Below are positions 29,837 through 52,902 of a stretch of 64,000 bases of DNA, in pieces. The translations under genes were made by a program, and so were the position numbers. How positions within the stretch are numbered: position 1 is the first letter of the stretch; each line of letters opens with the position of its first letter. This stretch comes from Thiorhodovibrio frisius (GTDB lineage Bacteria; Pseudomonadota; Gammaproteobacteria; Chromatiales; Chromatiaceae). A model generated the notes under the pieces. That model saw only the letters and a program-made list of their open reading frames with translations, did no database searches and was not told the origin of the DNA. Location: the NCBI RefSeq assembly GCF_033954835.1, contig NZ_CP121471.1, positions 1 through 64,000 of the forward strand, written 5' to 3'.

Positions 29837-30676
29837 ATGATGCTTTTACGTGTGTTTAACCCGGTCGCTACGGGCTTGGCCCTGAGGGAAGCCGTGGTGT
29901 CCATTCGCCGTGATAGAGCGCTGGTGCTTCACATGGCCGCGAGGGAGGTGCGTGATCGTTACGCCGGTCAGGTCCTGGGTGTCCTCTGGGCTGTTTTTGC
30001 CCCGCTGCTCACGATGGTTGTCTACATTTTCGCGTTTACCTTCATTTTCAAGCAACGCCTCGACATCGAGGACGCCGGTTTCGGCTATACGGCCTATGCG
30101 TTGGCTGGCCTTGTGCCCTGGCTCGCCATGGGCGACGTACTGTCGCGTTCGCCGACGGCCGTGTCGGGAAGCGCGAGTCTCGTCAAGCAGATCGTGTTTC
30201 CGTCTGAGGTCTTACCCCTCAGGACGGCACTCGCAAGCCTGCCGCAGTTATTCGTGGGTATCGTTGTCGCGGTGGCGGTCTCGTTCTTGGCCGGCCGGCT
30301 GCACCTTCAGGCGTTATGGCTGCTACCGACGGCAATCGTGCTTTATGTTACGACCATCTCCGGCATCAGCTTCCTGCTCGCGGCCATCGGCGTTTTCCTT
30401 AAGGACGTAAGAGAGATTCTCGCTTTTTTCGTCACCGTCGGCCTTTTCCTCCACCCGATCCTTTATCCCCCGGCGTCAATGCCAAGCTGGCTGAGCCCGC
30501 TGTTCCTGGCAAGCCCGTTCAGCCATCTGATATGGTGCTTCCGGGATTCGCTCATTGAGGAGACAGTCGCGCATCCTTGGTCGTGGGTAGTTTCTAGTAT
30601 CGTTTCAGTGCTTCTTTTTGCGACCGGTTGGCGGTTTTTCCGCATGTTGAAGCCGAGCTTTGGCAACGCGCTATGA
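29837..30676 (+). CDS. wzm: ABC-2 type polysaccharide export permease (Wzm)
   Basis: Inner-membrane channel subunit of an ABC exporter for lipid-linked polysaccharide. The 279-residue product has six predicted membrane helices and the family N-terminal amphipathic stretch followed by REVRDRYAGQVLGVLWAVFAPLLTMVVYIFAF. The central FPSEVLPLRTALASL and the final helices match O-antigen and capsule exporters. The ATPase gene wzt overlaps its end by ATGA, so the two are translationally coupled. Confidence 0.92.
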   Translation: MMLLRVFNPVATGLALREAVVSIRRDRALVLHMAAREVRDRYAGQVLGVLWAVFAPLLTMVVYIFAFTFIFKQRLDIEDAGFGYTAYALAGLVPWLAMGDVLSRSPTAVSGSASLVKQIVFPSEVLPLRTALASLPQLFVGIVVAVAVSFLAGRLHLQALWLLPTAIVLYVTTISGISFLLAAIGVFLKDVREILAFFVTVGLFLHPILYPPASMPSWLSPLFLASPFSHLIWCFRDSLIEETVAHPWSWVVSSIVSVLLFATGWRFFRMLKPSFGNAL

Positions 30677-32079
30677 GGACATCCGGCAGAGACACGGAGC
30701 AGCCAATCGCGATCCGCGTGTCGGGACTGTCGAAGGCCTTCCGGGTGTGGCAGCGCCCGGCCGACATGTTGCTTGAGGCGCTCTCGCTGGGGCGCCGCCA
30801 TACCGACCTCCAGGCGCTGAAAGCCATCTCGTTCGAGGTGCGGCGGGGCTCGGTGACTGGTATCATGGGGCGCAATGGTGCGGGCAAAAGCACATTGCTC
30901 CGGATCGTGGCGGGTACGCTTGATGCCACCGGCGGCTCCATGGAGGTAAATGGCCGGATTTCGGCCATCCTTGAGCTCGGCACGGGCTTTTCGCCCGAAT
31001 ATACCGGCCGCGACAACATCTATCTTGGCGGCATGTGCCTCGGGCTGAAGCGTCACGAGATCAAGGATCGCTTCAACGAGATCGTGGCTTTCTCTGAGTT
31101 GGCCGAGTTCATCGACATGCCTTTCCGAACCTTCTCCAGCGGCATGCAGGCCCGCCTCACCTTTGCGGTCGCCACCTCCGTCGACCCCGACATCCTTATC
31201 ATCGACGAGGCGTTGGCGGTGGGCGATGCGCGCTTCCAGGTGAAATCGTTCGACCGCGTGCGCGAGTTTAAGCGGCGTGGAAAGGCTATTCTGCTCGTCA
31301 GCCACGACATGAATCAAATCGCGTCGATCTGCGACCACGCCATTCTGCTTGAGAAAGGTCGCATTGTGGCGGATGGCGCGCCAAAGGAAGTGTGCAACAT
31401 CTATCACGAGATGCTGTTCGCGCCGGCAGTGGCATCGATGGCCGATGAGACGACCCGATCATCAGTATCAGCGACGGATTCCGGTACCGTGTCTGAGGTA
31501 GGCATTAAAAGAGACGTCGCAGAGCGGGCAATGTCCACTCTATCTGCCGACTCGGTGATGATGGCGGACGCAGCACCCGCGGACGCCTCATTAATACCCC
31601 AGCAGACAACAAGTGCGTTTGCTCCCCCTCTGACCGCAGCCTCGAAAGAACACAGATACGGCGATGGGATGGCACGCATCGTCTCGATGGGCATCACAAC
31701 TTCCGATGGCAGGCCGGTGGCCCGACTGATCAGCCTGATGGACTATCGTCTCGTCTGTCGGGTCAGGGCAATGCGCGATGTCCCGCAACTGGTGTTCGGC
31801 TGGTTGCTCCGAGACAAGCGCGGGTTAGACCTGTTCGGCTGGGATACTCAAACCGCTGGCCTCGCACCCGTCGATATGAAGTCGGGTGAAGAGCATGACT
31901 TCGTCGTGGGGTTTTCGGCGTGCTTGGGGCCAGGGCGCTTCTTTGTCACATCGGCCATTGCTCAAACGGACGGGCACAAACACGACGTTCGCCTAGACGC
32001 CTTGGAAATTGCGGTTGAAGGGGCCTTGGACCTTTACACCACGTCCCTCGTTAACCTCGCCCCACACATGGTGAGTTAG
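30673..32079 (+). CDS. wzt: ABC exporter ATPase with C-terminal glycan-binding domain (Wzt)
   Basis: Nucleotide-binding subunit that powers polysaccharide export with Wzm. The 468-residue product has Walker A GRNGAGKST near residue 76, signature FSSGMQARLTFA and Walker B ILIIDEALAVGD, followed by a low-complexity linker. A C-terminal beta-sandwich domain of about 150 residues (from YGDGMARIVSMGI) resembles the Wzt domain that recognises a terminal cap on the finished chain. ATG at 30673 overlaps the wzm stop; an earlier in-frame ATG lies within wzm. A strong terminator follows at 32217. Confidence 0.92.
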   Translation: MRTSGRDTEQPIAIRVSGLSKAFRVWQRPADMLLEALSLGRRHTDLQALKAISFEVRRGSVTGIMGRNGAGKSTLLRIVAGTLDATGGSMEVNGRISAILELGTGFSPEYTGRDNIYLGGMCLGLKRHEIKDRFNEIVAFSELAEFIDMPFRTFSSGMQARLTFAVATSVDPDILIIDEALAVGDARFQVKSFDRVREFKRRGKAILLVSHDMNQIASICDHAILLEKGRIVADGAPKEVCNIYHEMLFAPAVASMADETTRSSVSATDSGTVSEVGIKRDVAERAMSTLSADSVMMADAAPADASLIPQQTTSAFAPPLTAASKEHRYGDGMARIVSMGITTSDGRPVARLISLMDYRLVCRVRAMRDVPQLVFGWLLRDKRGLDLFGWDTQTAGLAPVDMKSGEEHDFVVGFSACLGPGRFFVTSAIAQTDGHKHDVRLDALEIAVEGALDLYTTSLVNLAPHMVS

Positions 32080-36570: not shown

Positions 36571-38529
36571 GTGTGCGGCCTAGCCGGCTTCATTGACGTC
36601 AAGCAACGCCTGGCCGCGGATGAGCGTGCGCGCATCGCGCGCGCCATGGGCATGGCAATCGAGCATCGCGGACCAGATGACTGGGGTGTGCACCAGGAGC
36701 CTGAGGCCGGTCTCGTATTGTCGTTTCGTCGGCTTGCGATTATCGACTTATCTTCTACGGGTCAGCAGCCGATGATTTCGGCTTCGGGCCGTTCTGTCAT
36801 CGCGTACAATGGGGAGATCTATAACGCAGCGGAGATCGCCAAAGAGTTGGAGGGGGTGGGGCACAGGTTTCGCGGTCATTCGGATACGGAGGTCTTGCTC
36901 GAGGCTTTTGACCGCTGGGGTGTCGAAGAGACAATGCCGCGACTCGTCGGCATGTTCGCCATCGCTTTCTACCGTCGCGAGAGCCGACGCCTGACCCTGA
37001 TTCGCGACCGACTTGGCAAGAAGCCGCTCTACTTCGGGAAAGTTCGCGGCACGGTGTTCTTCGGCTCGCAGCCCAAGTCGTTTTTCGCGCATCCCTCCTG
37101 GTCGCCCGAGATCGACCGCAAGAGCGTCGCCGCCTTCATGCGCTGGGGCTATGTGCCCGCTCCGCGCTCGATTTATCGGGGTGTCGAGAGCCTGAGACCC
37201 GCCGAGCGCATCGATATCGTCGCGGGCGATGTGGTCCACCGATCACAATACTGGAACATTCGGCACATCGCTGCCCGCGCACAGCGCTCGCCAAATCGGC
37301 TCTCCGATGTTGAAGTCAAGGCTCGCTTTGAGGCCCTGCTCGAGGAAGCGGTTAAGGTCAGGATGGTCTCTGATGTACCGCTGGGCGCTTTCCTGTCGGG
37401 AGGCATCGACAGCTCGACCATTGCGGCCCTGATGCAAAAGAACGCGTCGCGGCCGATCAAGACCTTTTCAATTGGTTTCGATGAGGCCGAGTATGATGAA
37501 TCGAAGCATGCTGCCGCGGTCGCCCGGCATCTCGGTACGGAGCACCAGGAGCTTGTCGTCCGCCCTGAGGACGCACTCAACGCGATCCCGCTCATGCCTG
37601 ACTATTTCGACGAGCCGTTCGCCGACGCCTCGCAGGTGCCGACCTATTTGCTGAGCAAGCTGGCGCGTCAAGACGTTACGGTAGCTCTGTCCGGTGACGG
37701 CGGTGACGAATTGCTCGCTGGCTATCCCCGCTATCGCATCGCCAACGAGACACTGGCCAATACCCGCAGGATACCGAAGGCACTGCGGGCGGTCGCCGCA
37801 GCCATGCTCCAGAATACCCCCAATGCAGTATGGCAATGCCTGCAGCCGATCTTGCCTCGGCGCCATGGCATCTCCCCGCTCGCAGGCCGCGCCAAGAGGC
37901 TCGGCCGTCTGATGGCGGCGGGCGCCGAGGAGCGGGTGTTCCAGAACATCGTCGGCCAGTGGCCGGACCCCGAGCGGTTGGTGCGCGACACCCTCTATGA
38001 AGAAGATTCTATCTGGGCCGGCGCGCTTGCCGACGAACTGCCTGACCCGATCCGTCGCTTCCAGATGCTCGATACACTCACCTATCTGCCAGACGACATT
38101 CTGGTGAAGGTCGACCGCTCAAGCATGGGTGTGGCGCTTGAGACACGCGTACCCCTTTTAGATCACCGCGTCGTCGAGTTCACGCTTGGCCTACCGGCCG
38201 AGCTACTGGAGCGCAGCGGGGAGACAAAGTGGCTGCTGCGTCAGGTGCTATATGAACACGTACCGAAGGCGCTTCTGGACCGCCCGAAGACCGGATTCAT
38301 GATGCCGATTGACCAGTGGCTGCGCGGACCCTTGCGCGATTGGGCCGAGGACCTGCTCGATGAGAAGCACATGGCCGTCGATGGCATCCTCGATCCAACG
38401 CCCATTCGCGAGACTTGGGCTCAGCACCTCTCCGGCCAGATCAACTGGCAATACCGGCTTTGGTGCGTACTGATGTTTCAGGCCTGGAAGCGACGATGGA
38501 TGGAGGGGATTCCGTACGGTGCGATCTGA
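36571..38529 (+). CDS. asnB: Asparagine synthase, glutamine-hydrolysing type (amidotransferase)
   Basis: 652-residue class II amidotransferase. The GTG start gives M-C-G, placing the catalytic cysteine at position 2. The glutaminase domain shows HRGPDDWG and AYNGEIYN. The synthetase domain has the PPi-loop LSGGIDSSTIAAL near residue 272 and ends with LLRQVLYEHVPKALLDRPKTGF. In polysaccharide loci such enzymes often amidate a uronic acid or another acidic group rather than make asparagine. AAAGG lies seven bases before the start. A second copy-type gene is at 55248; the two are clearly different in sequence. Confidence 0.88.
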   Translation: MCGLAGFIDVKQRLAADERARIARAMGMAIEHRGPDDWGVHQEPEAGLVLSFRRLAIIDLSSTGQQPMISASGRSVIAYNGEIYNAAEIAKELEGVGHRFRGHSDTEVLLEAFDRWGVEETMPRLVGMFAIAFYRRESRRLTLIRDRLGKKPLYFGKVRGTVFFGSQPKSFFAHPSWSPEIDRKSVAAFMRWGYVPAPRSIYRGVESLRPAERIDIVAGDVVHRSQYWNIRHIAARAQRSPNRLSDVEVKARFEALLEEAVKVRMVSDVPLGAFLSGGIDSSTIAALMQKNASRPIKTFSIGFDEAEYDESKHAAAVARHLGTEHQELVVRPEDALNAIPLMPDYFDEPFADASQVPTYLLSKLARQDVTVALSGDGGDELLAGYPRYRIANETLANTRRIPKALRAVAAAMLQNTPNAVWQCLQPILPRRHGISPLAGRAKRLGRLMAAGAEERVFQNIVGQWPDPERLVRDTLYEEDSIWAGALADELPDPIRRFQMLDTLTYLPDDILVKVDRSSMGVALETRVPLLDHRVVEFTLGLPAELLERSGETKWLLRQVLYEHVPKALLDRPKTGFMMPIDQWLRGPLRDWAEDLLDEKHMAVDGILDPTPIRETWAQHLSGQINWQYRLWCVLMFQAWKRRWMEGIPYGAI

Positions 38530-38778
38530 AGGACTCCGCAATAATGGTTACGGTGCATGGTCGGAGATGTCGAGTGATCGTCTAGCGGGTTGTAAGCCAA
38601 TCGTCGACCGCATTCGGTAGCGTTGATTATGCGGGCAAGGCTTCCGGGCTCGCTTCTCTATGAAATGGCTTTCTGGCTCGGCATCGTCACTGCTCTCAGA
38701 CCAGGGAACCACTTCTTTCTCTGTCTCAACTTCTACAGCTTTTTTTATTGCGCCGAACGAGTAGTAAGCGGAACGAGT

Positions 38779-41352
38779 ATGAATAGCGTCATCAGGCGTC
38801 GGAGGCCGGCTACCCGTCTGCGAAATTGGCTTTGGCGCGAATGTGTGGATCCGCGCAGGCAGGTGGTTTGGACAACGCGGGCGATGGGGTTGATTGCGGG
38901 GCTTCTCGCGGCTGCTCTCTTGCTGCAGATGGGCATCTGGTCGGCACAGGAGGAATTTAGCGGGCCCATGCAGACCGAGGGGCCGAATAGCCAGATGATC
39001 GCGCTACATCTGGATGGTGCTTCCAATTTGTCAGGGCTGCTCACGACAGGCGGTGATTCCACCGGGGCGGGCAACTTCCGATCCGATCTTCAGCTATGGG
39101 TGGACGGGGTCGCCTATACGCGCCCGCACACGCTGCATGCGGACCTTCGCGCGGGTGCGGCGCCTGGCGCCTACAGCCATTGGGGTGATGTGGTCTATTT
39201 CTCTGATCCCGACCCGTCGCCTCACATTCCCGCCACCGTGCGGGTGATCTATTCGGTTCAGCCGTTTGCGGGATCCGTCGCTCTGCTGATGGCTGCCTTG
39301 CTGCTTTCGGTGGCGATGCTTGTATTTCTTTCTCGTCGCGCCGGGCATCAGCCGGTTTGGGTCCGGGGCCTGGGCAACCGATTCGGTCTCGGCCTTCGTG
39401 CCGCGTCATGGGTGGTGCTTGGTTGCGCTTTGGTCTATCTGGCATCCATTCCGGTTGCGATGGCAATGGGCGAGCCTTTGCCAACCGCTTGGCTCGTCAG
39501 GGTTATGCCGGGCGGTTCCTATGTGCCGATGGCAATTCCCAGGATGCCGCACGTGGTGCTGGTCTTGGCGATTTCAGGGGCGGTTCTGACCTGGATGCTC
39601 CATCTGACCGGGATGTCTGCCGCCAAGTTTGAAGAACATACAGCCGCCCTCAGCCAGTTCTGGCTGAGGGCTGGTCTTGTCGTGGTCCCGGCACTCTTGC
39701 TCATGACGGCTAGTTCCGGCGGCTGGGCTGGTTACTTTACGACGTTTGAGACGCATAACACGACCCTTGGCGGGTTGCTGCCGTACTTGGATGCGTATTG
39801 TCACTACTCCAGTGCGTTCGACCTTCTGTTTCGTGGCGAGTGGAACCACTTGGTCAGCCGGCGCCCGCTCGCCGGCGCATTCAGAACCGCGATCACGACG
39901 GCCGGGGGCTTGTCCTATGTCGGGGGCATCTATGTGCAGATCATGCTGATTGCTGCCTGTCTTTTGTTTGCTCTGCGGGCCCTTCTGCAACGCTACGGTC
40001 TATGGGCCGCGCTGGCTTTCTTCGCGCTCGCCTTCGGCATTGCAGCTGTTCACCTAAACACCACCATGACCGAGCCGCTCGGGTTGATTTGGGCGCTGCT
40101 GGCTCTGGCCGTGCTGGTGGAAAGCCACGCACGGCGGTCAGCTGTTTTGGCGCTGCTGGGCTTCGCTCTGTTCACGCTGGCCATGGTCACGCGCATGGGC
40201 AGTATGTTCGCGATTCCTCTTCTAGCAATTTGGGTGGCATTCGCATTCGGCGGTATTTCGCGCAGGGGTGCGCTGTTGCTTGCGGCGTGCGGTGCGATCA
40301 CGCTTGCGGTTCTCGCGGCCGGAGAAGTCTTCAATATCCTCTTTTCAAACCCCGATTCTCAGGTGGGTGGGAACGTTTCCTATACCTTTTGCGGGCTGGC
40401 GCGGGGCACTGGCTGGGCCGAATGCAAGGACACTTTCGCCGCCGAGTTGGCGGCCCTGCCGTCGATCCGTGACAAGAACGCGTTTCTGTTTGGCCAGGCA
40501 TTCGAGGCATTGCAGCAATCCCCCGCAACCCTGATTGTCGGACTGATCGATAATGTCACCATGTTTTTCAGGGCAATGCCGCAGTACTTCGCCGGTTACT
40601 ACGCGACCCAACCCGTGGTCTCGTTCTCCCGCAATGCTACTGTCTTGGTCTACCTGTTTCTCGGTGCTGGGTTGCTAGCACATGCACGACGCATAGACTG
40701 GCGTGTAACGGGCACGTTCTGGATCGCCCTCGGGCTCGGCGTCATAAGCTCAGCGGCGCTGATCTTTCGCGATGATGGACTTCGCACGCTAGTGGTTACC
40801 CATGTCTTTGTCGCCGCGCTCCTCGCGATGGCGTTAACCGTGCCACAGCCATTTCGCCCAAGCCGCCTGAAAGCCGACCTATTTCGCGCGCCTGTATGGG
40901 CCGGGGGTATCGCCGTAGCCCTATGCTTGTTTCTTGGAGCGGGACTGTTTGTCAGGTCAATGCATACGGAAACCTTGGCTGCGGGCCGATCCGCGGCAGA
41001 CGACCGCTCTGCGGTGTTCGCGCGCAAGGGTTTGACCGGATTCCTGGTGGGCAGTCCGGGGCCGGACGCTCAGCATGTGCCGCACATCCCGTCATCGGTT
41101 TTCGCCCGCATCCTCGAAACCGAATCGTCCTTGCCGCCGGATTTAATCGTTGACATGAAAGCACAATCCGTAACACATCCGGCCGTCTTCAGGGGCTTTA
41201 CCATGCCATCGGCCGGCACCATATACGTTCCCGTGATGTTCGGACCGCGCAGTATTCTTCTGGAAAGCGACCCAAGCAGAACGAGTGCGGAGACGCGGTT
41301 TGACTTCGGATTAGCGCTTTCGTGGGCTGATGATCCTGCCTGCTTGCCCTGA
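38779..41352 (+). CDS. Large polytopic membrane protein, copy 1 (GT-C-like)
   Basis: 857-residue protein with an N-terminal cytoplasmic stretch, a first membrane helix (near 40-60), a soluble loop to about 150, then many hydrophobic helices. The loop after the next helix group carries GGLLPYLDAYCHYSSAF, which resembles the acidic first extracytoplasmic loop of GT-C glycosyltransferases. No database match can be claimed. ATG at 38779 is chosen because the homologous start of copy 2 gives the same length. Bases 38802-41258 are almost identical to 42181-44637. The C-terminal 30 residues differ from copy 2. Confidence 0.7.
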   Translation: MNSVIRRRRPATRLRNWLWRECVDPRRQVVWTTRAMGLIAGLLAAALLLQMGIWSAQEEFSGPMQTEGPNSQMIALHLDGASNLSGLLTTGGDSTGAGNFRSDLQLWVDGVAYTRPHTLHADLRAGAAPGAYSHWGDVVYFSDPDPSPHIPATVRVIYSVQPFAGSVALLMAALLLSVAMLVFLSRRAGHQPVWVRGLGNRFGLGLRAASWVVLGCALVYLASIPVAMAMGEPLPTAWLVRVMPGGSYVPMAIPRMPHVVLVLAISGAVLTWMLHLTGMSAAKFEEHTAALSQFWLRAGLVVVPALLLMTASSGGWAGYFTTFETHNTTLGGLLPYLDAYCHYSSAFDLLFRGEWNHLVSRRPLAGAFRTAITTAGGLSYVGGIYVQIMLIAACLLFALRALLQRYGLWAALAFFALAFGIAAVHLNTTMTEPLGLIWALLALAVLVESHARRSAVLALLGFALFTLAMVTRMGSMFAIPLLAIWVAFAFGGISRRGALLLAACGAITLAVLAAGEVFNILFSNPDSQVGGNVSYTFCGLARGTGWAECKDTFAAELAALPSIRDKNAFLFGQAFEALQQSPATLIVGLIDNVTMFFRAMPQYFAGYYATQPVVSFSRNATVLVYLFLGAGLLAHARRIDWRVTGTFWIALGLGVISSAALIFRDDGLRTLVVTHVFVAALLAMALTVPQPFRPSRLKADLFRAPVWAGGIAVALCLFLGAGLFVRSMHTETLAAGRSAADDRSAVFARKGLTGFLVGSPGPDAQHVPHIPSSVFARILETESSLPPDLIVDMKAQSVTHPAVFRGFTMPSAGTIYVPVMFGPRSILLESDPSRTSAETRFDFGLALSWADDPACLP
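38802..41258 (+). repeat. 2457-bp direct repeat, first copy
   Basis: Pairs with 42181-44637 without any insertion or deletion (offset 3379). The only differences I see are 11 bases between 39761 and 39799 and one base at 40938. Outside the repeat both genes continue as homologous but clearly diverged sequence, including the stop codon and the first bases beyond it. Confidence 0.93.
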
Positions 41353-41393
41353 CCAAATTTCCCAGTTCGCGTTGACGGTTATTTTCGGGGCCA

Positions 41394-42130
41394 GTGCGGC
41401 CTGGCAAGGCCGCGTGTTCTAGCGGGTTTGAGTCCCGTCCGGGTAATTGTGAGCCGCGAGCTCGGTATCAAGCCTTGTTGTGTCAAGTTAAATCCAGATC
41501 CTTAGAATCGGAAGCCGTGAAATTCGATTATGTTACCCAGTGGGTGAGGGGCGAAGTAATTCCCACGAGATGCGGCTAACCACCGCGCTCTGTGGCGAAC
41601 CTGCGTGCATATTTCCGCAAGGGTATGTATGAAGCCAGGTGTAGCGAGTGTGCAGGACGCGTGATAGGTTCCCAAAAAAATAGTTTTTGTGGTTTATGAG
41701 GATAACTGCGCGCAAGCACGGGAAAGCCGACGGTTTCAAGGCACCGGAAGGCTGTAGTCTTTGGCGCGTTAAGGTGAGCGGCGAAGACACCACCGGGATC
41801 GCCGAGCAGGGCATGTAGACACAAGGGTAGCTTGGGAACTTGAGAGGACCGTCATCTCCTTGTGGAGGACGCCGGTGAGGCACGCCGGAGAAGAACAGGG
41901 CCAGGCGCTGCTGGGGTCATCGTTAGTACCGTTGTAGCGAACCCGAGAGGGGATACAAACCAAAAGAGAATGATCACAAGGTATCGGGACACGTAGGTTC
42001 TCGAACTCGCCCATCTGGATCCTCGACAATCGGGTGCTAGGTAGCTGACGCTGCGGAGTCTCCGAGATTGACTCCAGTGAATGCAGAACTGCGACTGTGA
42101 CCACCGGCAGAGCCGAGGGATTACCGGAAT
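41394..42130 (+). ncRNA. Candidate group II intron 5' fragment or other structured RNA
   Basis: The 780-base gap between the two membrane-protein genes has no convincing open frame. At 41394 it starts GTGCG, the 5' consensus of group II introns, followed at once by a hairpin GCGGCC-TGGCAA-GGCCGC (41396-41413) and then GCGGG-TTTGAGT-CCCGT. The stretch is rich in short GNRA-like loops and stems. No reverse-transcriptase gene and no domain V are found, and it runs into the start of copy 2. I infer an ORF-less, 3'-truncated intron; other structured RNAs are possible. Confidence 0.35.
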
Positions 42131-42157
42131 GATATGCTCGACTGGGACGGAACAGCT

Positions 42158-44731
42158 TTGAATAGTGCCAAACAACGGCTGAGGCCGGCTACCCGTCTGC
42201 GAAATTGGCTTTGGCGCGAATGTGTGGATCCGCGCAGGCAGGTGGTTTGGACAACGCGGGCGATGGGGTTGATTGCGGGGCTTCTCGCGGCTGCTCTCTT
42301 GCTGCAGATGGGCATCTGGTCGGCACAGGAGGAATTTAGCGGGCCCATGCAGACCGAGGGGCCGAATAGCCAGATGATCGCGCTACATCTGGATGGTGCT
42401 TCCAATTTGTCAGGGCTGCTCACGACAGGCGGTGATTCCACCGGGGCGGGCAACTTCCGATCCGATCTTCAGCTATGGGTGGACGGGGTCGCCTATACGC
42501 GCCCGCACACGCTGCATGCGGACCTTCGCGCGGGTGCGGCGCCTGGCGCCTACAGCCATTGGGGTGATGTGGTCTATTTCTCTGATCCCGACCCGTCGCC
42601 TCACATTCCCGCCACCGTGCGGGTGATCTATTCGGTTCAGCCGTTTGCGGGATCCGTCGCTCTGCTGATGGCTGCCTTGCTGCTTTCGGTGGCGATGCTT
42701 GTATTTCTTTCTCGTCGCGCCGGGCATCAGCCGGTTTGGGTCCGGGGCCTGGGCAACCGATTCGGTCTCGGCCTTCGTGCCGCGTCATGGGTGGTGCTTG
42801 GTTGCGCTTTGGTCTATCTGGCATCCATTCCGGTTGCGATGGCAATGGGCGAGCCTTTGCCAACCGCTTGGCTCGTCAGGGTTATGCCGGGCGGTTCCTA
42901 TGTGCCGATGGCAATTCCCAGGATGCCGCACGTGGTGCTGGTCTTGGCGATTTCAGGGGCGGTTCTGACCTGGATGCTCCATCTGACCGGGATGTCTGCC
43001 GCCAAGTTTGAAGAACATACAGCCGCCCTCAGCCAGTTCTGGCTGAGGGCTGGTCTTGTCGTGGTCCCGGCACTCTTGCTCATGACGGCTAGTTCCGGCG
43101 GCTGGGCTGGTTACTTTACGACGTTTGAGACGCATAACAGAACACTTGGCGGGCTGGTGCCCTACACAGATGCCTATGGTCACTACTCCAGTGCGTTCGA
43201 CCTTCTGTTTCGTGGCGAGTGGAACCACTTGGTCAGCCGGCGCCCGCTCGCCGGCGCATTCAGAACCGCGATCACGACGGCCGGGGGCTTGTCCTATGTC
43301 GGGGGCATCTATGTGCAGATCATGCTGATTGCTGCCTGTCTTTTGTTTGCTCTGCGGGCCCTTCTGCAACGCTACGGTCTATGGGCCGCGCTGGCTTTCT
43401 TCGCGCTCGCCTTCGGCATTGCAGCTGTTCACCTAAACACCACCATGACCGAGCCGCTCGGGTTGATTTGGGCGCTGCTGGCTCTGGCCGTGCTGGTGGA
43501 AAGCCACGCACGGCGGTCAGCTGTTTTGGCGCTGCTGGGCTTCGCTCTGTTCACGCTGGCCATGGTCACGCGCATGGGCAGTATGTTCGCGATTCCTCTT
43601 CTAGCAATTTGGGTGGCATTCGCATTCGGCGGTATTTCGCGCAGGGGTGCGCTGTTGCTTGCGGCGTGCGGTGCGATCACGCTTGCGGTTCTCGCGGCCG
43701 GAGAAGTCTTCAATATCCTCTTTTCAAACCCCGATTCTCAGGTGGGTGGGAACGTTTCCTATACCTTTTGCGGGCTGGCGCGGGGCACTGGCTGGGCCGA
43801 ATGCAAGGACACTTTCGCCGCCGAGTTGGCGGCCCTGCCGTCGATCCGTGACAAGAACGCGTTTCTGTTTGGCCAGGCATTCGAGGCATTGCAGCAATCC
43901 CCCGCAACCCTGATTGTCGGACTGATCGATAATGTCACCATGTTTTTCAGGGCAATGCCGCAGTACTTCGCCGGTTACTACGCGACCCAACCCGTGGTCT
44001 CGTTCTCCCGCAATGCTACTGTCTTGGTCTACCTGTTTCTCGGTGCTGGGTTGCTAGCACATGCACGACGCATAGACTGGCGTGTAACGGGCACGTTCTG
44101 GATCGCCCTCGGGCTCGGCGTCATAAGCTCAGCGGCGCTGATCTTTCGCGATGATGGACTTCGCACGCTAGTGGTTACCCATGTCTTTGTCGCCGCGCTC
44201 CTCGCGATGGCGTTAACCGTGCCACAGCCATTTCGCCCAAGCCGCCTGAAAGCCGACCTATTTCGCGCGCCTGTATGGGCCGGGGGTATCGCCGTAGCCC
44301 TATGCTTGTTTCTTGGAGCTGGACTGTTTGTCAGGTCAATGCATACGGAAACCTTGGCTGCGGGCCGATCCGCGGCAGACGACCGCTCTGCGGTGTTCGC
44401 GCGCAAGGGTTTGACCGGATTCCTGGTGGGCAGTCCGGGGCCGGACGCTCAGCATGTGCCGCACATCCCGTCATCGGTTTTCGCCCGCATCCTCGAAACC
44501 GAATCGTCCTTGCCGCCGGATTTAATCGTTGACATGAAAGCACAATCCGTAACACATCCGGCCGTCTTCAGGGGCTTTACCATGCCATCGGCCGGCACCA
44601 TATACGTTCCCGTGATGTTCGGACCGCGCAGTATTCTAATGAAGGAAGACCCAAGCGGAACGCCGGTGGTGACGCGGTTTGATGCTCCATCAGCTCCTTT
44701 CGGGGTCGCCGACCCGGTCGACTTGCCCTGA
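42158..44731 (+). CDS. Large polytopic membrane protein, copy 2 (GT-C-like)
   Basis: 857-residue near-twin of the protein at 38779. A TTG at 42158 aligns with the ATG of copy 1 (both followed by AATAG and preceded by CGGAAC) and gives exactly the same length, so it is taken as the start. An ATG eight codons upstream is the alternative. The central loop reads GGLVPYTDAYGHYSSAF against GGLLPYLDAYCHYSSAF in copy 1. The last 30 residues (KEDPSGTPVVTRFDAPS...) differ. The function is unknown; a membrane glycosyltransferase or polymerase for the local polysaccharide is plausible. Confidence 0.7.
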   Translation: MNSAKQRLRPATRLRNWLWRECVDPRRQVVWTTRAMGLIAGLLAAALLLQMGIWSAQEEFSGPMQTEGPNSQMIALHLDGASNLSGLLTTGGDSTGAGNFRSDLQLWVDGVAYTRPHTLHADLRAGAAPGAYSHWGDVVYFSDPDPSPHIPATVRVIYSVQPFAGSVALLMAALLLSVAMLVFLSRRAGHQPVWVRGLGNRFGLGLRAASWVVLGCALVYLASIPVAMAMGEPLPTAWLVRVMPGGSYVPMAIPRMPHVVLVLAISGAVLTWMLHLTGMSAAKFEEHTAALSQFWLRAGLVVVPALLLMTASSGGWAGYFTTFETHNRTLGGLVPYTDAYGHYSSAFDLLFRGEWNHLVSRRPLAGAFRTAITTAGGLSYVGGIYVQIMLIAACLLFALRALLQRYGLWAALAFFALAFGIAAVHLNTTMTEPLGLIWALLALAVLVESHARRSAVLALLGFALFTLAMVTRMGSMFAIPLLAIWVAFAFGGISRRGALLLAACGAITLAVLAAGEVFNILFSNPDSQVGGNVSYTFCGLARGTGWAECKDTFAAELAALPSIRDKNAFLFGQAFEALQQSPATLIVGLIDNVTMFFRAMPQYFAGYYATQPVVSFSRNATVLVYLFLGAGLLAHARRIDWRVTGTFWIALGLGVISSAALIFRDDGLRTLVVTHVFVAALLAMALTVPQPFRPSRLKADLFRAPVWAGGIAVALCLFLGAGLFVRSMHTETLAAGRSAADDRSAVFARKGLTGFLVGSPGPDAQHVPHIPSSVFARILETESSLPPDLIVDMKAQSVTHPAVFRGFTMPSAGTIYVPVMFGPRSILMKEDPSGTPVVTRFDAPSAPFGVADPVDLP
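42181..44637 (+). repeat. 2457-bp direct repeat, second copy
   Basis: Second copy of the repeat at 38802-41258. The divergent 39-base patch lies at 43140-43178 here, and the single base change at 44317. The patch changes four residues (T to R, L to V, L to T, C to G) and also includes silent changes. Confidence 0.93.
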
Positions 44732-44920
44732 CCCGGATTTCTCAGTGCGCCCTGATAGCTGAAGAGCGCCCGGTCAGTGCCCAGATCGACGGCATGGTTA
44801 AGTCAAACTGTTCAGGCCGCCCAAGTGCGCAGAGCGGGTTCTCGGGACGTTTCCGTTTTCCCATTTCGCAACATAGACATATCAATGCAGATTACGAAGC
44901 CCGAAGGGATGGTGTGACCG

Positions 44921-46365
44921 CAATGCCGTCAACTTTAGCGCCACCACGCGGATTTTGTTGAAATTATCGTTCGCATTCCAGTTTCCAACCCGATGGAGTA
45001 CCAACCATGAAGCGCCACACACAAATTGAACTAAAGCCGGCTGAAGTTGCGCATACGAAGTGTATTCCCAAATGTGTACACCGGGATTAATGATTCACTT
45101 TCCAGCGCCGATTTTGTTGCTGAACATCGCTTGAGCGAACGTGCGTTCACCCGCCAACGCGATTTGCCCTTCGAGCGCTTGGTGGCCTTCCTGATGAAAC
45201 CCCGCGCGCGCAGCACCGAGACGGAGCTGGAGACGTTTTTTGCCGCGCTGGAGGGCGAAACTGTCTCTTCGGGTGTGCCAACCCGCGCGGCGGTGAGCAA
45301 GGCGCGCAAGGGGCTGGCGGCATCGGTGTTTCAGGCGCTCAACCGCCAAGCGGTGGCGGGCTTTTTCTCCGGTTTCGGTCGCCCCACCTGGCATGGGTTC
45401 CGCTTGCGGGCGGTGGACGGGACGACCTTTCGCCTGCCCGATGGCGAGGATATCGAACGGTTCTTTGGCGCTCAGTCCAGCGGGCCGGTGCTTGCGCGCG
45501 CTTCGATGCTCTTTGACCTGGATCTGGACATGGTTCTGGACTTTGGCTTGGCAGCCTACTGCGTCAGTGAGCTTGAACTGGCGGTCGATCATCTCAAGGC
45601 AACCGCGCCAGGGGACTTGGTTATTTATGATCGCGGGTATCCGGCATTGTGGCTGTTTGCCTTGCATCTGAGTTTGGGTGTGGACTGCGTGATGCGCTTG
45701 GCGCGCAAGCAGTTCAAGGAAGCCGAGCCGTTTTGGCACAGCGATGCACCCAGTGCGCTGATCACCTAGCAGCCCTCCGCGAAGCAAGCACGCGCCTGCC
45801 GCGACCAGGGTGTCGAACCGCAACCGATCACCTTGCGTCTGGTGCGGGTCAAGCTCAAAGGCGGCGAAACCGAAGTGTTGGCCACCACGGTCCTGGAGGA
45901 AACGCGCCTCCCGGCACGGTTGTTCAAAGACCTCTACCACCGCCGTTGGGGCGTGGAGGAAGGCGGCTACAAGGTCTCCAAGATGCGCGCGGAGATGGAG
46001 AATCTCTCGGGGCGCTCCTCGCTTGCGGTGCGCCAGGACATGCATGCGAAGGTGCTGGCGATGAATCTGGCCGCGATGCTGCGCGCGGTGGCGCAGCTGG
46101 TGGCCAAACGCCTGTATCAGGCACGCCGGTTTGACTACCAGGTGCGCATGACCAGCGCATTGTCCCATCTGAGTGACCAGTTGTTTCATCTCCTCTACGC
46201 CTCACCCAGCGGCGGTGCAGAGCTGATCATACGGATCATCCAGCGCCTCTCGCAGACCACCGAGCAAGTGCGCCCGGAGCGAAGTTTCCCGCGTCACAAT
46301 CCCGGAAAGCGCAAGGCGGGCTATTCGATTCCGTACAAGCGGGTGATCTAAAGTTGACGGCATTG
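44921..46365. mobile_element. IS4-family-like insertion sequence
   Basis: A 1445-base element with 18-base perfect terminal repeats, CAATGCCGTCAACTTTAG (44921-44938) and its complement (46348-46365). The left flank is GGTGTGACCG (44911-44920). The matching right-hand duplication is found only at 48565-48574, after a group II intron that begins directly at the IS end. The 10-base duplication fits the IS4 family. The transposase gene has an in-frame stop. Confidence 0.9.
45047..46351 (+). pseudogene. IS4-type transposase interrupted by an amber codon
   Basis: One continuous frame from 45047 encodes an IS4-type DDE transposase. It has VDGTTFRLPD near residue 120 (first Asp), VIYDRGYPALWLF near 190 (second Asp) and YHRRWGVEEGGYKVSK (the Y-2-R-3-E signature) in the second half. 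A TAG at 45767-45769 splits it: the frame is unchanged on both sides (ALIT-stop-QPSAKQ). Apart from this codon it appears complete, so inactivation is recent or read-through occurs. The start is a TTG; an earlier start is possible. Confidence 0.85.
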
Positions 46366-46977
46366 GTGCGACACGAGGTTGCACGTGTACTTATCAAGGA
46401 ACTCTGATCCGGTGTTCTGCCACCGGTACCCTACCAGACCGTGCGTTGGGGGTAACCCTGGGGTGCGAAGCGTCTGGGACACCGTAGCCTCCGTCTTTCG
46501 GGACGGGCGACGGACCCGCGAGGGAAAGTCGCGACTGCCAGCCTCATGGCGGTCGGGAGCTGGGTTGAAGGGCAAGGCTAACTCAGGTGAACCGCTGTTG
46601 AAACGTCGTTATCAACGCCATGCCAAAGAGGCTGACAGGCATGAACCAAAAGGTAAGCAGTCAGGTCGGGGCGTTCAATGCTGGCCCCGCGCAGATGATG
46701 CACTGCCGGCGTACAGGCGGAGCCTACCCCCTTCTGGAATGGTACGCGTGCGAAACGTGGTAAGCCTGATCGTTCCCACAAGGGCGGTGGACAGCGACCC
46801 GCAAGGGTCGGCTTGCGAGCGAGCGGGTATGGGAGGCCGGAGAAAGCGAAAGCCGCGCTGTAATGGGGCGGATAGGGGTTCACGCTTTGCCTCACTGCGA
46901 AAGCAGGCAGACTTCCGGCTGGTCTTGATTCACGAAAACGGTCAGGAAAGGCTTAACTTGCGTGGTGTCTTTGGACA

Positions 46978-48429
46978 ATGAACGCCGTTGGCATCATTGA
47001 AGGCCCGCAAGCTCTGGCGCCACACTGGGCATCCATCGATTGGCCCAGAATACGTCGCCAGGTCAGCCGATTACAAGCCCGGATCGTGAAGGCGCTCAGA
47101 GCAGGCAAGTGGCACCGCGTGCGCTCGCTACAGCGCCTGCTCACCAACTCGCTGGCCGCCAAGCTGTTGGCGGTGCAGCGGGTTAGCTCCAATCGGGGCA
47201 GCAAAACGGCGGGAGTCGACGGTGTCGTGCTGAAGACGCCCGCGCAAAAGTGGCGACAAGCCCATCAGTTGAATGCGAAGGAGTATGCGCCAAAGCCGCT
47301 GAGACGGATCTACATCCCCAAGAAAAACGGAAAACGCCGCCCGCTCGGGATTCCGGTTCAAGCCGACAGAGCCGAGCAGGCGCTCGAGTTGTTGGCGCTT
47401 GACCCGGTCTCGGAAACCCTGGCAGATGCATGCTCCTATGGGTTTCGCAAGGAGCGCGGAGCGCAGGATGCCATCGCCGGGTGCTTTCTGGCACTATGTC
47501 GACGCCGCAGCGCGGAATGGATTCTGGAAGGGGATATCCGGGCCTGTTTCGATGAGCTGTCACATCCGTGGCTGCTCGCACAGGTCCCGACTCATCAAGG
47601 AAAATTGCGCGCTTGGCTCAAGGCCGGATTCATGGAACGCGGGGTGTTTCATCCAACAACGGCCGGAACACCACAAGGGGGCATTCTGTCCCCGACGGCG
47701 GCCAATATGGCCCTGGATGGGCTGGAGACGCGGCTGAGGGCGCGTTTCAAGAGCCATCACAAGGTCAATCTGGTCCGCTACGCGGATGACTTCATCATCA
47801 CCGGCGTGTCACAGACACTGCTGGCCGATGAGGTCAAACCCTTGGTGCAGCAATTTCTCAGGGAACGCGGCTTGGAGTTGTCCGAAGCGAAGACCCATAT
47901 CGTGCATATCGATGAGGGGTTCGATTTCCTCGGCTTCAACCTGCGCAAGTATCACGGAAAGCTGCTCATCAAACCGGCCAAATCCAGTATCGCGGCGGTG
48001 AAGGAGAATATCCGGGGCATCATGAACACAAATGGCCACCTGAGCCAAGATGTCCTGATCTACCGCCTCAACCCGGTTATCCGAGGCTGGGGCAATTATT
48101 ACCGCCATGTCGTGAGCAAGGAGGTCTTCAACGACATCGATCACGCGATCTGGCGCATGACATGGAGCTGGGCCACACGACGACATCCCCAGAAAGGCCG
48201 AAAGTGGGTCAAGGACCGCTACTATACTCACATGGACGGTCGCGACTGGGTGTTCACGGATGGATCGGTTACGCTCTTTCGGATGGCGAGTATTCCGATC
48301 CGCAGGCATGTGAAGATTCGCGGCGATGCCAACCCGTATGACCGACAAGACGCGGCTTATTTCACCGCACGTCACGCACGTCAGCGCGGTCGCCTTCCAA
48401 CGCCTGCGCCTCCTTGGTTCCTTCCGTGA
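46978..48429 (+). CDS. Group II intron-encoded reverse transcriptase/maturase
   Basis: 483-residue intron protein that helps splicing and reverse-transcribes the intron during mobility. An N-terminal RVT_N-type region (about 15-90) is followed by reverse-transcriptase blocks with SSNRGSKTAGVDG, IPKKNGKRRPLGIP and the catalytic YADD (in LVRYADDFIIT). The maturase X domain follows (NPVIRGWGNYYRHVV) and then KIRGDANPYDRQDAAYF. No HNH endonuclease motif is seen at the C terminus, so retrohoming may rely on replication forks or be endonuclease-free. The frame is intact. Confidence 0.93.
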   Translation: MNAVGIIEGPQALAPHWASIDWPRIRRQVSRLQARIVKALRAGKWHRVRSLQRLLTNSLAAKLLAVQRVSSNRGSKTAGVDGVVLKTPAQKWRQAHQLNAKEYAPKPLRRIYIPKKNGKRRPLGIPVQADRAEQALELLALDPVSETLADACSYGFRKERGAQDAIAGCFLALCRRRSAEWILEGDIRACFDELSHPWLLAQVPTHQGKLRAWLKAGFMERGVFHPTTAGTPQGGILSPTAANMALDGLETRLRARFKSHHKVNLVRYADDFIITGVSQTLLADEVKPLVQQFLRERGLELSEAKTHIVHIDEGFDFLGFNLRKYHGKLLIKPAKSSIAAVKENIRGIMNTNGHLSQDVLIYRLNPVIRGWGNYYRHVVSKEVFNDIDHAIWRMTWSWATRRHPQKGRKWVKDRYYTHMDGRDWVFTDGSVTLFRMASIPIRRHVKIRGDANPYDRQDAAYFTARHARQRGRLPTPAPPWFLP

Positions 48430-48489
48430 TGCGTCGCAGCCATCTCCCCGTTGAGCGCCGGGCGCTTCACGGCGCCTTTTTCAAGGCTT

Positions 48490-48523
48490 GAGCCGTGTGC
48501 GGTGAAAGTCGCACGCACGTTTC
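48490..48523 (+). ncRNA. Group II intron domain V
   Basis: A 34-base hairpin beginning GAGCCGTGTGCGG, with GAAA in the terminal loop and the catalytic AGC triad near its 5' base, closing with CGCACGCACG. It matches the highly conserved domain V form. A domain VI-like hairpin (48527-48555) follows before the intron 3' end at 48564. Confidence 0.88.
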
Positions 48524-48749
48524 TTAGGGGACGGAGTGGCCGTAAGGTCACCCTGTTACCCGACGGTGTGACCGTGCTATCATGTGCCAATGGATATTAT
48601 GTCGTCCCCAGTCAAGAAATTAAAACCCGGTGTTTACGCGGCCACGCATTCGGCGGTAAAGGGTCCGAAAAATTGGCGCAGCCCCGCTGACAATGCCTAC
48701 CAGGCCAAATAGTCTTGTTTTACTAATATACTGATCGTCATGGTAGATA

Positions 48750-49651: not shown

Positions 49652-51082
49652 ATGCCGTCCACCTTTCAATTAGAATTCTCTGGTTACCAAGCCGAGCGGA
49701 GTGCTTTTTGGGATGACATTGCTACCCAGCCTTTTAATTCTTTGGGAGGATACTATCACCGCTGGCTTACTTATGTTTACAGATTGGCCATTCCCGAAGG
49801 TGCTCGCGTATTGGAAGTTGGTTGCGGCATCGGCAATCTGATTTCCGCACTGAAACCCAGCATTGGCATCGGCGTAGACTTTTCTTCGCGCATGATTCAA
49901 GAAGCGCGCAGACGACATTCGGATATCCAGTTTGTTGTAGCCGATGCTCATGAACTAGACCTTGGCGATCACGATTTCGATTTTATCATTTTATCGGATC
50001 TCATCAATGATGTCTGGGATTTACAAAGAATTTTCGAGCAACTTACACCATATTGCAGCTCTTCCACCCGTATTATTTTAAATTATTTTAGTCATCTGTG
50101 GCAGACGCCGTTGTCAATTGCGCGACAATTTCGGCTGGCAACGCCCACCCTCACCCAAAATTGGTTTACTCGGCATGATGTCGAGAATCTACTCGAGCTA
50201 AGTGGCTACCAGCCGCTACGCTGTTGGGAGGAAATAATCGTACCCTTGCGAATTCCATTGCTTAGCACCTTTTCCAACCGCTTTCTCGCCCGGATTGCGC
50301 CATTTCGTTGGTTGGCGCTGACCAACTTTCTCGTTGCGCGACCCAGTCCAGCATTCAGTCCTTCACCAAGAGTTTCTGTCGTGGTGGCCGCGCGCAATGA
50401 ACAAGGCCATGTCGATGAATTGATCGAACGGATTCCTGAAATGGGCCGTGGCACGGAAATCGTCTTCGTCGAGGGAAACTCGACTGACGACACCTGGGGA
50501 ACAATTCAGCGCGCCATCGCTGCCAACCCGCAGCGAAATTGCAAGTTGCTGAAGCAACCCGGAAAGGGAAAGGGGGACGCTGTGCGAACCGGATTCGAAG
50601 CGGCGACTGGGGATATACTGGTTATTTTGGATGCTGACATTACCGTTCCACCGGAGGATTTGCCGCGCTTTTTTGATATTCTTGTGTCTGGACAAGGGGA
50701 GTTTGCCAACGGTGTTCGCCTGGTTTATCCGATGCAAGACGATGCCATGCGGTTTTTCAATCTAATCGGCAACAAGGTATTTTCCTGGGCGTTCAGTTGG
50801 TTACTTGGCCAGCCAATCAGGGATACTCTATGTGGAACGAAGGCGCTCTGGGCGAAGGATTATCAGCGGCTTGCCGCGAATCGCGCCTATTTTGGAGACT
50901 TCGATCCGTTTGGCGATTTCGATCTGTTATTCGGGGCCGCCAAGCTTAACTTGAAAATCATGGAGGCCCCCATTCGTTATCGAGCGCGTCGTTATGGTAG
51001 TACAAATATTCAGCGTTGGCGACATGGTCTCCTGTTGGCGCGCATGGTCTTATTTGCCGCCCGTCGGATTAAGTTCGTTTAG
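49652..51082 (+). CDS. SAM methyltransferase fused to GT2 glycosyltransferase
   Basis: 476-residue bifunctional protein. The N-terminal half (about 30-200) is a class I methyltransferase with VLEVGCGIGNLISAL near residue 52 and FDFIILSDLINDV near 110. The C-terminal half (about 237-476) is a GT-A fold glycosyltransferase family 2 domain with SVVVAARNEQGHV, EGNSTDDTW, GKGDAVRTGF and the metal-binding DAD in VILDADI. Polyprenyl-phosphate sugar synthases have a similar GT2 form. ATG start with AAGAGG upstream. Next genes are co-directional. Confidence 0.83.
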   Translation: MPSTFQLEFSGYQAERSAFWDDIATQPFNSLGGYYHRWLTYVYRLAIPEGARVLEVGCGIGNLISALKPSIGIGVDFSSRMIQEARRRHSDIQFVVADAHELDLGDHDFDFIILSDLINDVWDLQRIFEQLTPYCSSSTRIILNYFSHLWQTPLSIARQFRLATPTLTQNWFTRHDVENLLELSGYQPLRCWEEIIVPLRIPLLSTFSNRFLARIAPFRWLALTNFLVARPSPAFSPSPRVSVVVAARNEQGHVDELIERIPEMGRGTEIVFVEGNSTDDTWGTIQRAIAANPQRNCKLLKQPGKGKGDAVRTGFEAATGDILVILDADITVPPEDLPRFFDILVSGQGEFANGVRLVYPMQDDAMRFFNLIGNKVFSWAFSWLLGQPIRDTLCGTKALWAKDYQRLAANRAYFGDFDPFGDFDLLFGAAKLNLKIMEAPIRYRARRYGSTNIQRWRHGLLLARMVLFAARRIKFV

Positions 51083-51127: not shown

Positions 51128-51901
51128 ATGGGTATTCTAGCTTCTTGGTTGTCGTATCCCCTTACGCGCGGGTTATCGATTGATGACCCCCGAACGACGG
51201 CCCTTCGCCGTCGTATTCTACGGGATAAAGCTTTCTTGGCGCAGGTCTATGATGAGTGGTATGCGTTGATTATTGACGCATTGCCTGCTCGGGACGACGT
51301 GCTTGAACTAGGCTCCGGCGCTGGGTTTCTGTCGGAGCTTTTGCCGGGGCTTATCACCTCCGAGGTTTTTTCGACTCCGAATGCTAAATGCGTCTTGGAT
51401 GCAAGCAGGCTTCCATTCTCTGCGCATTCGTTAAACGCGATCGTTATGACCGATGTGTTCCATCATATCCCGGATGTGCGGCTTTTCTTTCATGAGGCCG
51501 TACGTTGCGTTCGTCCCGGTGGACGTGTCCTGATGATAGAGCCCTGGCGAACGCCTTGGTCCGAATGGGTATACACCCACTTGCACCATGAGCCATTTCT
51601 TCCCAAGGCGAAGCAGTGGTCGCTCCCACCAGGCCAGGGCCCCTTGTCCGCGGCCAATGGCGCATTACCTTGGCTGGTGTTCCAGCGCGACCAGCGCCGG
51701 TTTAAGGCGGAATTTCCAGCTTTACGCAATTTGGCCATTAAGCCTTTGATGCCGCTGGCTTACTTGCTTTCCGGCGGCGTTTCCATGAGATCGCTCATGC
51801 CTGGTTGGGCCTATCCATGGATCCGTCGCCTGGAGCGAACGGTCGGCGAGAACCGCTGGGCGATGTTCGCCTTCATCGTACTGGAGCGCCGCTCGACATG
51901 A
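51128..51901 (+). CDS. Class I SAM-dependent methyltransferase
   Basis: 257-residue methyltransferase with VLELGSGAGFLSELLPG near residue 60, then LNAIVMTDVFHHIPDVRLFF and VRPGGRVLMIEPW. The ATG at 51128 is preferred, with GGGA upstream; an in-frame TTG at 51083 directly after the preceding stop would add 15 unconvincing residues. The stop overlaps the next start as ATGA. The substrate is unknown; the setting points to a glycan or lipid carrier. Confidence 0.78.
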   Translation: MGILASWLSYPLTRGLSIDDPRTTALRRRILRDKAFLAQVYDEWYALIIDALPARDDVLELGSGAGFLSELLPGLITSEVFSTPNAKCVLDASRLPFSAHSLNAIVMTDVFHHIPDVRLFFHEAVRCVRPGGRVLMIEPWRTPWSEWVYTHLHHEPFLPKAKQWSLPPGQGPLSAANGALPWLVFQRDQRRFKAEFPALRNLAIKPLMPLAYLLSGGVSMRSLMPGWAYPWIRRLERTVGENRWAMFAFIVLERRST

Positions 51902-52902
51902 CGCGTTCCATCCGCAAGGCGGCGCTGGTCATTCTAGTTAGCTTGTTCCTAAGTGCGCTTTTTTTGTGGCTCGCATTGCGTCAGGTAGAGCCCAAGTTGG
52001 TAATCCGGGCCCTGGTGGATTTGCAGCTGGCGTCTCTTGTTTTCGCCGGCTTTGCTATCGCCCTGGGAATTCTGCTTCGCGGTTGGCGCTGGCGCTTGCT
52101 TTCGGGGAGCGCAAACAACACGCAGCCGGAATTTTTCCGCGCAACCGCGCTCGGGGTTTTCGCCAATCTTGTGATACCAGCGCGTCTTGGGGAAATCGTC
52201 CGGGTCGCCGCGCTGTACAAGCTCTCATACTTATCACTCAGCGAGGTTGTCGCCAGCGGTTTTGTCGATCGACTCACAGATATCCTGGTTTTGGTTTGCG
52301 TGGCATCAGTGCTCTTTCTTGTTATGCCGATTCCGGATTTCGTCGACGACTGGCTGTTCGGCTTTGGTCTCGCCTTAGGCTTAGTGATGACAGGCGTAGC
52401 CCTCACCTCACGCAGACATGTTCTTGGAAGGTTTACCGTTACGCGAGTGGTCAAATTTTGGCGCATCCGCTGGCCTGCGCAGCCGCTCACGTTCGCCGCA
52501 AACGTCCGTCACCGACTCTCAGTCGCACTGCGGCGGGTACCGAGCCCGCGAGTCGCTGCTGTTATATTCCTTGTCCTCATCGCTGACTATTGCGCGGTGG
52601 CCTTGGTCTTACGGGCGTTTCGACTCGATTTGCCGCTTTCGGCGCCGCTGGTCTTATGGGTGTTTTTCGCGGCAGGCTCAGCGCTGCCGTCGGCCCCAGG
52701 CTACGTTGGCGTCTATCAACTGGCCGGCCGGTGGGCGCTCGGGCTATTTGACGTCCCCGCCACCATTGCCGTCGCGCTCGCCACGGTATTCCAAGCGGTC
52801 GTGCTTCTCGTCGCGGCTATACTGGCGGGCATGGCCTCTTGGCGAACCGGCGTTTCCGGTTTTTACGCCGCAGAATCAAAACCAAATGAAACTAAACACT
52901 AA
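51898..52902 (+). CDS. Flippase-like membrane protein (UPF0104/LPG synthase TM region family)
   Basis: 334-residue integral membrane protein with about eight hydrophobic helices. Family signs are FANLVIPARLGEIVRVAAL and GSALPSAPGYVGVYQL, as in the transmembrane part of MprF and AglD-type proteins. These act as flippases or in lipid-linked sugar steps. ATG at 51898 overlaps the previous stop (ATGA). The 3' end overlaps the next gene by 17 bases. A role in moving a lipid-linked sugar is inference. Confidence 0.8.
   Translation: MTRSIRKAALVILVSLFLSALFLWLALRQVEPKLVIRALVDLQLASLVFAGFAIALGILLRGWRWRLLSGSANNTQPEFFRATALGVFANLVIPARLGEIVRVAALYKLSYLSLSEVVASGFVDRLTDILVLVCVASVLFLVMPIPDFVDDWLFGFGLALGLVMTGVALTSRRHVLGRFTVTRVVKFWRIRWPAQPLTFAANVRHRLSVALRRVPSPRVAAVIFLVLIADYCAVALVLRAFRLDLPLSAPLVLWVFFAAGSALPSAPGYVGVYQLAGRWALGLFDVPATIAVALATVFQAVVLLVAAILAGMASWRTGVSGFYAAESKPNETKH

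Follow-up and report, generated by a model that had tools for sequence, protein, structure and literature searches.

The window examined here (64,000 nucleotides, positions 1 to 64,000 of contig NZ_CP121471.1 of Thiorhodovibrio frisius) contains two long membrane-protein genes lying in tandem on the forward strand, with a group II intron relic between them and an IS-like element and a second group II intron behind them. Genes for glycosyltransferases, methyltransferases and asparagine-synthase-like proteins also flank the pair (Table 1). Copy 1 encodes 857 amino acids from the ATG at 38779, while for copy 2 either a protein of 857 amino acids from the TTG at 42158 or one of 865 from the upstream ATG at 42134 can be read; the equal length given in the first-pass annotation is correct for the former start and does not hold for the latter. 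DNA and protein searches of the 5,417,120-bp one-contig genome returned just these two copies and no third paralogue at E 0.001. A search of the same genome with the A1 profile added one place, 33938-34258 within the gene 32201-35680, which matches in the N-terminal YSHWG-type region only.

Table 1. Features of the tandem pair and its surroundings (window coordinates; a dash in the evidence joins first and last positions)
Feature	Coordinates	Strand	Evidence
Polysaccharide exporter: ABC-2 permease, and ATPase carrying a Wzt C-terminal domain	29837..32079	+	ABC permease and Wzt-type ATPase genes
5' diverged homologous end, copy 1	38769..38801	+	20/33 identical to 42148-42180
Copy 1, predicted GT-C-type membrane glycosyltransferase gene, motif GGLLPYLDAYCHYSS	38779..41352	+	ORF, translation; fold from copy 2 core
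Homogenised tract, copy 1	38802..41258	+	12 differences in 2457 bp, 11 in patch
Divergent patch, copy 1	39761..39799	+	11/39 bases unlike; putative catalytic Asp codon 39790
3' diverged homologous end, copy 1	41259..41352	+	60/94 identical to 44638-44731, ungapped
Group II intron relic between the copies, no long ORF	41387..41904 (approximate)	+	matches to genome 340487-340930 and 439776-440288
Copy 2, paralogue, motif GGLVPYTDAYGHYSS	42158..44731	+	ORF, translation; core model m4ee83508e11b
Homogenised tract, copy 2	42181..44637	+	ungapped comparison with copy 1
Matching patch, copy 2	43140..43178	+	Asp codon 43169; agrees with family consensus S/T-D
IS-like element, split DDE transposase	44912..46374		27-bp imperfect inverted ends, 85% complementary; PF01609
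Group II intron, reverse transcriptase/maturase ORF 46978-48429	46408..48564	+	RF02012 46408-46560, RF00029 48488-48564, TIGR04416 above cut-off
Methyltransferase-GT2 fusion	49652..51082	+	GT2 half best with dolichyl-phosphate sugar transferase NCBIfam types, below cut-off
LPG_synthase_TM / flippase-like membrane protein	51805..52902	+	PF03706; TIGR00374 39.7 bits, cut-off 43.2

The homogenised tracts align at an offset of 3379 and, as recomputation of the earlier comparison confirmed, without gaps and with a single unlike base outside the patch, namely the silent one at 40941 (GCG/GCT); the count of 11 differences inside the patch was likewise reproduced. The longest identical runs between the copies measure 1141, 959 and 317 bp, and the core proteins are unlike only in patch residues. 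Within the patch, which in copy 2 encodes RTLGGLVPYTDAYG, 8 of the 14 codons are unlike, four of them by silent changes only and four by replacements (T/R, L/V, L/T and C/G, copy 1 versus copy 2). Four residue changes had previously been assigned to a pair of 15-residue segments; the number is right for the patch, only L/V, L/T and C/G fall within those segments, and T/R belongs to the codon at 39760.

Outside the tracts the two genes remain homologous yet clearly diverged, including the stop codon and the bases beyond it, as the first-pass annotation had stated and as the base counts in Table 1 bear out. The 5' end comprises ten leader bases and the gene start, the 3' end the coding tail with the stop, and similarity after the stop is lost within about 30 bp. 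Divergence amounts to 28% in the patch, 36% in the 3' coding tail and 39% at the 5' end. In ungapped comparison 5 silent and 17 replacement codons are unlike among the 32 of the 3' tail, and 2 silent and 5 replacement codons among the 8 of the 5' end. Fisher tests do not separate the density of differences in the patch from that at the ends (p 0.43 and 0.33), but set it far apart from that of the core (p = 4e-20). The locus thus displays diverged ends, a homogenised core and a narrow diverged island, the pattern looked for in gene conversion. Because the patch has diverged about as far as the ends and half of its changed codons (4 of 8) are silent, its differences would represent old divergence and not a local burst of mutation. 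As judged from these letters, the best fit is an old paralogous pair on which recent conversion has acted, leaving a single patch unlike. The same history had been proposed in the first-pass annotation, and it now gains from the agreement of patch and ends, the share of silent codons and the search for other donors described below.

Several other origins of the patch were rejected. Recent duplication followed by local mutation is contradicted by the divergence of both ends and by the four silently changed codons. Local template switching was discarded, as a search of the window for exact words of 11-20 bases carrying a changed base, direct or inverted, gave no second occurrence. An ectopic donor was dismissed, since the 42- and 27-base copy 1 patterns and the 27-base copy 2 pattern match only themselves genome-wide with up to 3 mismatches. 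Against a diversity-generating retroelement speak the presence of A in only 4 of the 11 differences, the patch patterns being unique in the genome at up to 3 mismatches, and the nature of the nearby reverse transcriptase, a group II maturase.

A wider version of the duplication scenario, in which a recent simple duplication was followed by replacement of the 39 bp in one copy, through an imported patch, an ectopic template or targeted mutagenesis, would account for the near-identity of the core and could draw on the reverse transcriptase gene lying 2.2 kb downstream of copy 2. We consider it improbable, since both ends are diverged as well, no patch donor was found in the genome (up to 3 mismatches) or in the window (words of 11-20 bases), the reverse transcriptase is a group II maturase, and the proportion of A among the differences does not resemble adenine mutagenesis. 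Still less credible, and in our opinion very unlikely, is an assembly or polishing artefact by which the consensus of one gene was copied onto the other. Assemblers do err at near-identical tandem repeats; however, the genome is a single contig, and the patch, the tails and the surroundings are unlike between the copies. For T. frisius 970 the sequencing details cited from PMC10609205 give a genome of 5.42 Mbp in one contig, obtained on PacBio Sequel IIe from 10-kb libraries, with 911x coverage reported and an assembly target of 40x, and such libraries, if the present sequence comes from that strain, are long enough to span the 5.9-kb pair.

Relatives of the two proteins are distant. The closest one found, from a Xanthobacteraceae metagenome-assembled genome (MAG; locus L028), is about 35% identical, and the others belong to Thiodictyon-like Chromatiaceae, an alphaproteobacterial MAG, Chloroflexi and a cyanobacterial MAG. 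Genomes G150-G153 are presumably the Thiodictyon-like Chromatiaceae. Neither of the 2 other genomes of the genus gave a homologue; matches were found in 5 others of the family (search with P0002, 210 genomes including its own) and in 11 others in the order search with the A1 profile (210 genomes), 8 of these 11 matching in the N-terminal region only. The class sample gave no match among 368 other genomes and the phylum sample 2 weak ones among 397. The first pattern scan of contigs yielded no locus and the second 10 loci, one of which (L037) has the N-terminal region only; no homologue was detected in the plasmid search. G150 and G152 each hold a second, diverged member of the family on another contig, so two members in one genome are not unusual.

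The patch spans a conserved motif, G-x-x-P-x-S/T-D. Gly340, Pro343 and Asp346 (residues 340, 343, 346 and 349 are given in P0002 numbering) are invariant in both copies and in every aligned relative, that is, in the nine relatives of alignment A2, five of which are close kin from Chloroflexi, and the five of alignment A1; they make up three of the 23 invariant columns of A2 (copy 2 and nine relatives). Directly before the Asp, the 13 distinct relatives (the nine A2 and five A1 rows, one protein, L036/L010, being common to both) all have Ser, copy 2 has Thr and copy 1 has Leu. Position 349 is occupied elsewhere by Gly, Ala, Ser or Asn, and Cys is found in copy 1 alone. T-D-A-x-G in copy 2 thus stands against L-D-A-x-C in copy 1. 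By this alignment copy 2 conforms to the family motif, and copy 1 has a variant form whose changes leave the invariant residues untouched.

At E 0.01 no Pfam or NCBIfam model recognises either copy, a PDB sequence search with A4 gave nothing at E 1 or better, and two of the five relatives scanned score below the cut-off for PMT_2 (PF13231; 21.0 and 22.8 versus 26.1 bits). A core model was compared by its fold. It was computed with AlphaFold from ten core sequences and is of low confidence (mean pLDDT 60, about 43-56 in the patch; pTM 0.66). Its structural neighbours include ALG12 (Z 19.5), ArnT (17.4), ALG3 (15.5), Pmt4 (15.3) and OST (15.2); the 46 matches listed with Z 9.2-19.5 are, to judge by their titles, chains of GT-C type, and the next one, of another fold, has Z 5.0. 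Four GPI-transamidase chains among the 46 were counted on our assumption that they are GT-C-like. For the core model plain Foldseek gave weak E-values (best 3.3e-3); GT-C chains headed the ranking, and unrelated membrane proteins came in from rank 12. For a full-length model of mean pLDDT 53 the best E was 1.5e-2, again with GT-C chains leading. Both copies are, on this modelling, probably GT-C-type membrane glycosyltransferases.

The first-pass annotation had compared the patch loop to the catalytic loop of GT-C enzymes and had called for a structure prediction that would place it. In the core model (pLDDT 60) D346 comes after helix 57-89, the first helix of the GT-C-aligned part, and the patch motif accordingly lies in the first loop of that module. 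The comparison is strengthened, as the model aligns to GT-C chains far above anything else and the Gly, Pro and Asp of the patch are invariant. ArnT and ALG12 share the core fold and likewise have an Asp in the loop that follows helix one of the module aligned; they differ by an identity of only 11-14%, by the lack of Pfam or NCBIfam matches here and by an extra N-terminal region of about 285 residues. Other GT-C enzymes hold a proposed catalytic Asp at that loop position, according to the part of PMC11127046 drawn on here, and by analogy D346 is a putative catalytic Asp.

The neighbours of the pair suggest polysaccharide modification. The best NCBIfam scores of the GT2 half of the methyltransferase-GT2 fusion are those of AglJ and of dolichyl-phosphate hexose transferase, both under their cut-offs. 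The cluster offers candidates for all three components of a known type of system, a GT2 resembling lipid-linked-sugar synthases, a flippase-like protein and the GT-C enzyme, of which the GT2 and the flippase remain below NCBIfam cut-offs. In three loci from Chromatiaceae (L069-L071; 65-67% identity) the fusion gene adjoins a GT-C gene; its homologue in L028 (50%) lies one gene further away. Each of these four loci shows one GT-C gene of the family. As far as it is described in the cited part of PMC11127046, three-component O-antigen glycosylation (GtrA/GtrB/Gtr, and the GT136 enzyme ORF12 of Citrobacter youngae) similarly clusters a GT-C enzyme with a polyprenyl-phosphate-sugar-synthase-like protein, a flippase-like protein and an ABC polysaccharide exporter. 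The present locus, a predicted system, differs in that the GT-C gene is doubled, the GT2 is fused to a methyltransferase and the candidate flippase resembles LPG_synthase_TM. GC content is 0.50 in the methyltransferase-GT2 gene and 0.60 in the GT-C copies, although the former is the better conserved across species. Two asparagine-synthase-like genes, 36571-38529 and 55248-57176, lie one on each side of the pair and are 49% identical.

We propose that the two GT-C glycosyltransferase genes form an ancient tandem pair within a cluster for an ABC-exported polysaccharide, and that recent gene conversion made 2.4 kb of each copy identical, by one or more intrachromosomal events or by replacement of both copies with the same incoming allele. 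Conversion would have halted at both ends and spared the 39-bp island at the first-loop motif with its putative catalytic Asp; since a single long gap-repair event would erase such an island, we infer that two events or a mosaic one were needed, a point that counts against the account. From the gene context both enzymes would attach to the polysaccharide, on the periplasmic side, a sugar taken from a polyprenyl-phosphate donor that the adjoining GT2 makes. Copies with a converted island may then have been selected against, if the two motifs give different donor, acceptor or linkage specificity, a weaker step of the kind proposed for divergence peaks in opsin and Rh pairs. To this account, of which selection is the weaker part, we assign a probability of about 0.6. 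Its first part is real as a pattern and well explained by conversion that left an island at a probable active-site motif, whose role is assigned by analogy. That selection for two specificities kept the island is plausible, though less likely than not; the argument is where the island lies and what kind of changes it holds, in one genome.

How exceptional this position is depends on the measure. Among 806 windows of 14 residues, 14 cover D346 and 44 contain at least 3 invariant columns, while by overall conservation the patch window ranks 48th of 853 in A2 (top 6%) and 84th of 853 in A1 (top 10%); the chance of an island landing on the motif is, on these figures, about 2-10%. The same conversion history could also have run its course without selection, conversion tracts being patchy by nature and the island simply never having been covered by a tract or a mismatch-repair patch. 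The patch is no more diverged than the ends, and the ends show that parts of the genes escape conversion; moreover, its longest identical run is 9 bp, so that local divergence itself could hinder strand exchange, and on overall conservation its rank is not extreme. We hold this explanation to be about as probable as selection; against it stand the strongly conserved catalytic-type motif on which the island sits and the few windows that cover the Asp or are equally rich in invariant columns.

Leu and Cys at family-conserved positions also raise the thought that copy 1 may be impaired rather than re-specified. Copy 1 would then be decaying or have entered a non-catalytic state, from which conversion by copy 2 restored it just partly. 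Both residues are peculiar to copy 1, and the four relatives' loci with a methyltransferase-GT2 gene show one GT-C gene of the family nearby. On the other side, copy 1 retains the motif residues Asp, Gly, Pro, Ala, Tyr and His, its 857-codon frame is open, four patch codons changed silently only, as under constraint, and the second members in G150 and G152 speak against a single-gene norm. We regard loss of function as rather unlikely. It shares its conversion history, as does the explanation without selection, with the reading in which selection retained the island.

Turning back to retention by selection, the pair suggests, from its sequence, two enzymes kept different exactly at the site of chemistry. 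A more specific version, which we put forward tentatively, is that the enzymes, the same except for loop and ends, embody a one-motif specificity switch shielded by selection from repeated conversion, and make two decorations, or one decoration at two sites, on the same polysaccharide. Conversion with an island of divergence is a known kind of pattern. The portions of PMC3924837 and PMC3728101 relied on here describe divergence peaks over functional sites in opsin, Rh, yeast and Drosophila gene pairs; the red/green opsins, RHCE/RHD, the Teshima-Innan model and GOT1 of Tigriopus share with our pair very similar duplicates and a narrow peak of differences on a functional site. The opsin, Rh and GOT1 cases are, in the same portions, eukaryotic and come with population or comparative data, whereas we deal with one bacterial genome and a sharp-edged 39-bp island. 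Prokaryotic paralogues kept similar by concerted evolution are likewise on record in the cited part of PMC6053082; that process is long-lasting, while the near-identical pair here is known from one genome. Among the papers listed in literature searches on conversion in paralogues, no GT-C gene pair of such a kind was seen, which is not proof of absence. If the account is true, the locus would give a clear example from bacteria of an active-site island outlasting conversion. It would also supply a near-isogenic GT-C pair in which to seek the few residues that govern the choice of donor or acceptor; in GT-C families this is difficult because their members are usually too diverged for comparison.

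The N-terminal extra region carries the conserved YSHWG motif. A domain without a Pfam entry (consensus SRLxLxEDGxPL...GxYSHWGxxLxFSTxDxSDP) is present in the GT-C genes and also in a glycosyltransferase/methyltransferase fusion (the window gene 32201-35680, around 33938-34258), in adjoining membrane proteins of several Chromatiaceae (L064-L068) and in a planctomycete MAG (L037). In three of the five other Chromatiaceae loci inspected for this (L064, L066 and L068) the adjoining membrane-protein genes that share this domain are about 45% identical and not homogenised; L065 aligned over 117 residues only and L067 has one such ORF. In the Xanthobacteraceae MAG an FSHWG-type membrane-protein gene (L028:3481-5729) lies upstream and appears by eye as two overlapping frames, possibly with a frameshift.

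The relic between the copies matches Rfam RF02005 at 41557-41808 (69.2 bits, gathering threshold 49), and the split DDE transposase scores 22.8 and 24.2 bits with PF01609 (cut-off 23). The IS-like element has apparently landed in the 5' portion of the group II intron that lies downstream, for GTGCGCC, which resembles intron 5' ends, stands beyond the copy 2 stop. A 94-bp stretch of the relic, 41383-41476 (stem GCGGCCTGGCAAGGCCGC, then GTGTTC or GTGCTC), recurs at 21 further places in the genome, the majority within 78-440 kb and 4.12-4.35 Mb, which suggests a group II intron family in many copies. When seven of these loci were aligned, L013 and L014 ran on as the relic does, and L015-L019 had a different downstream sequence.
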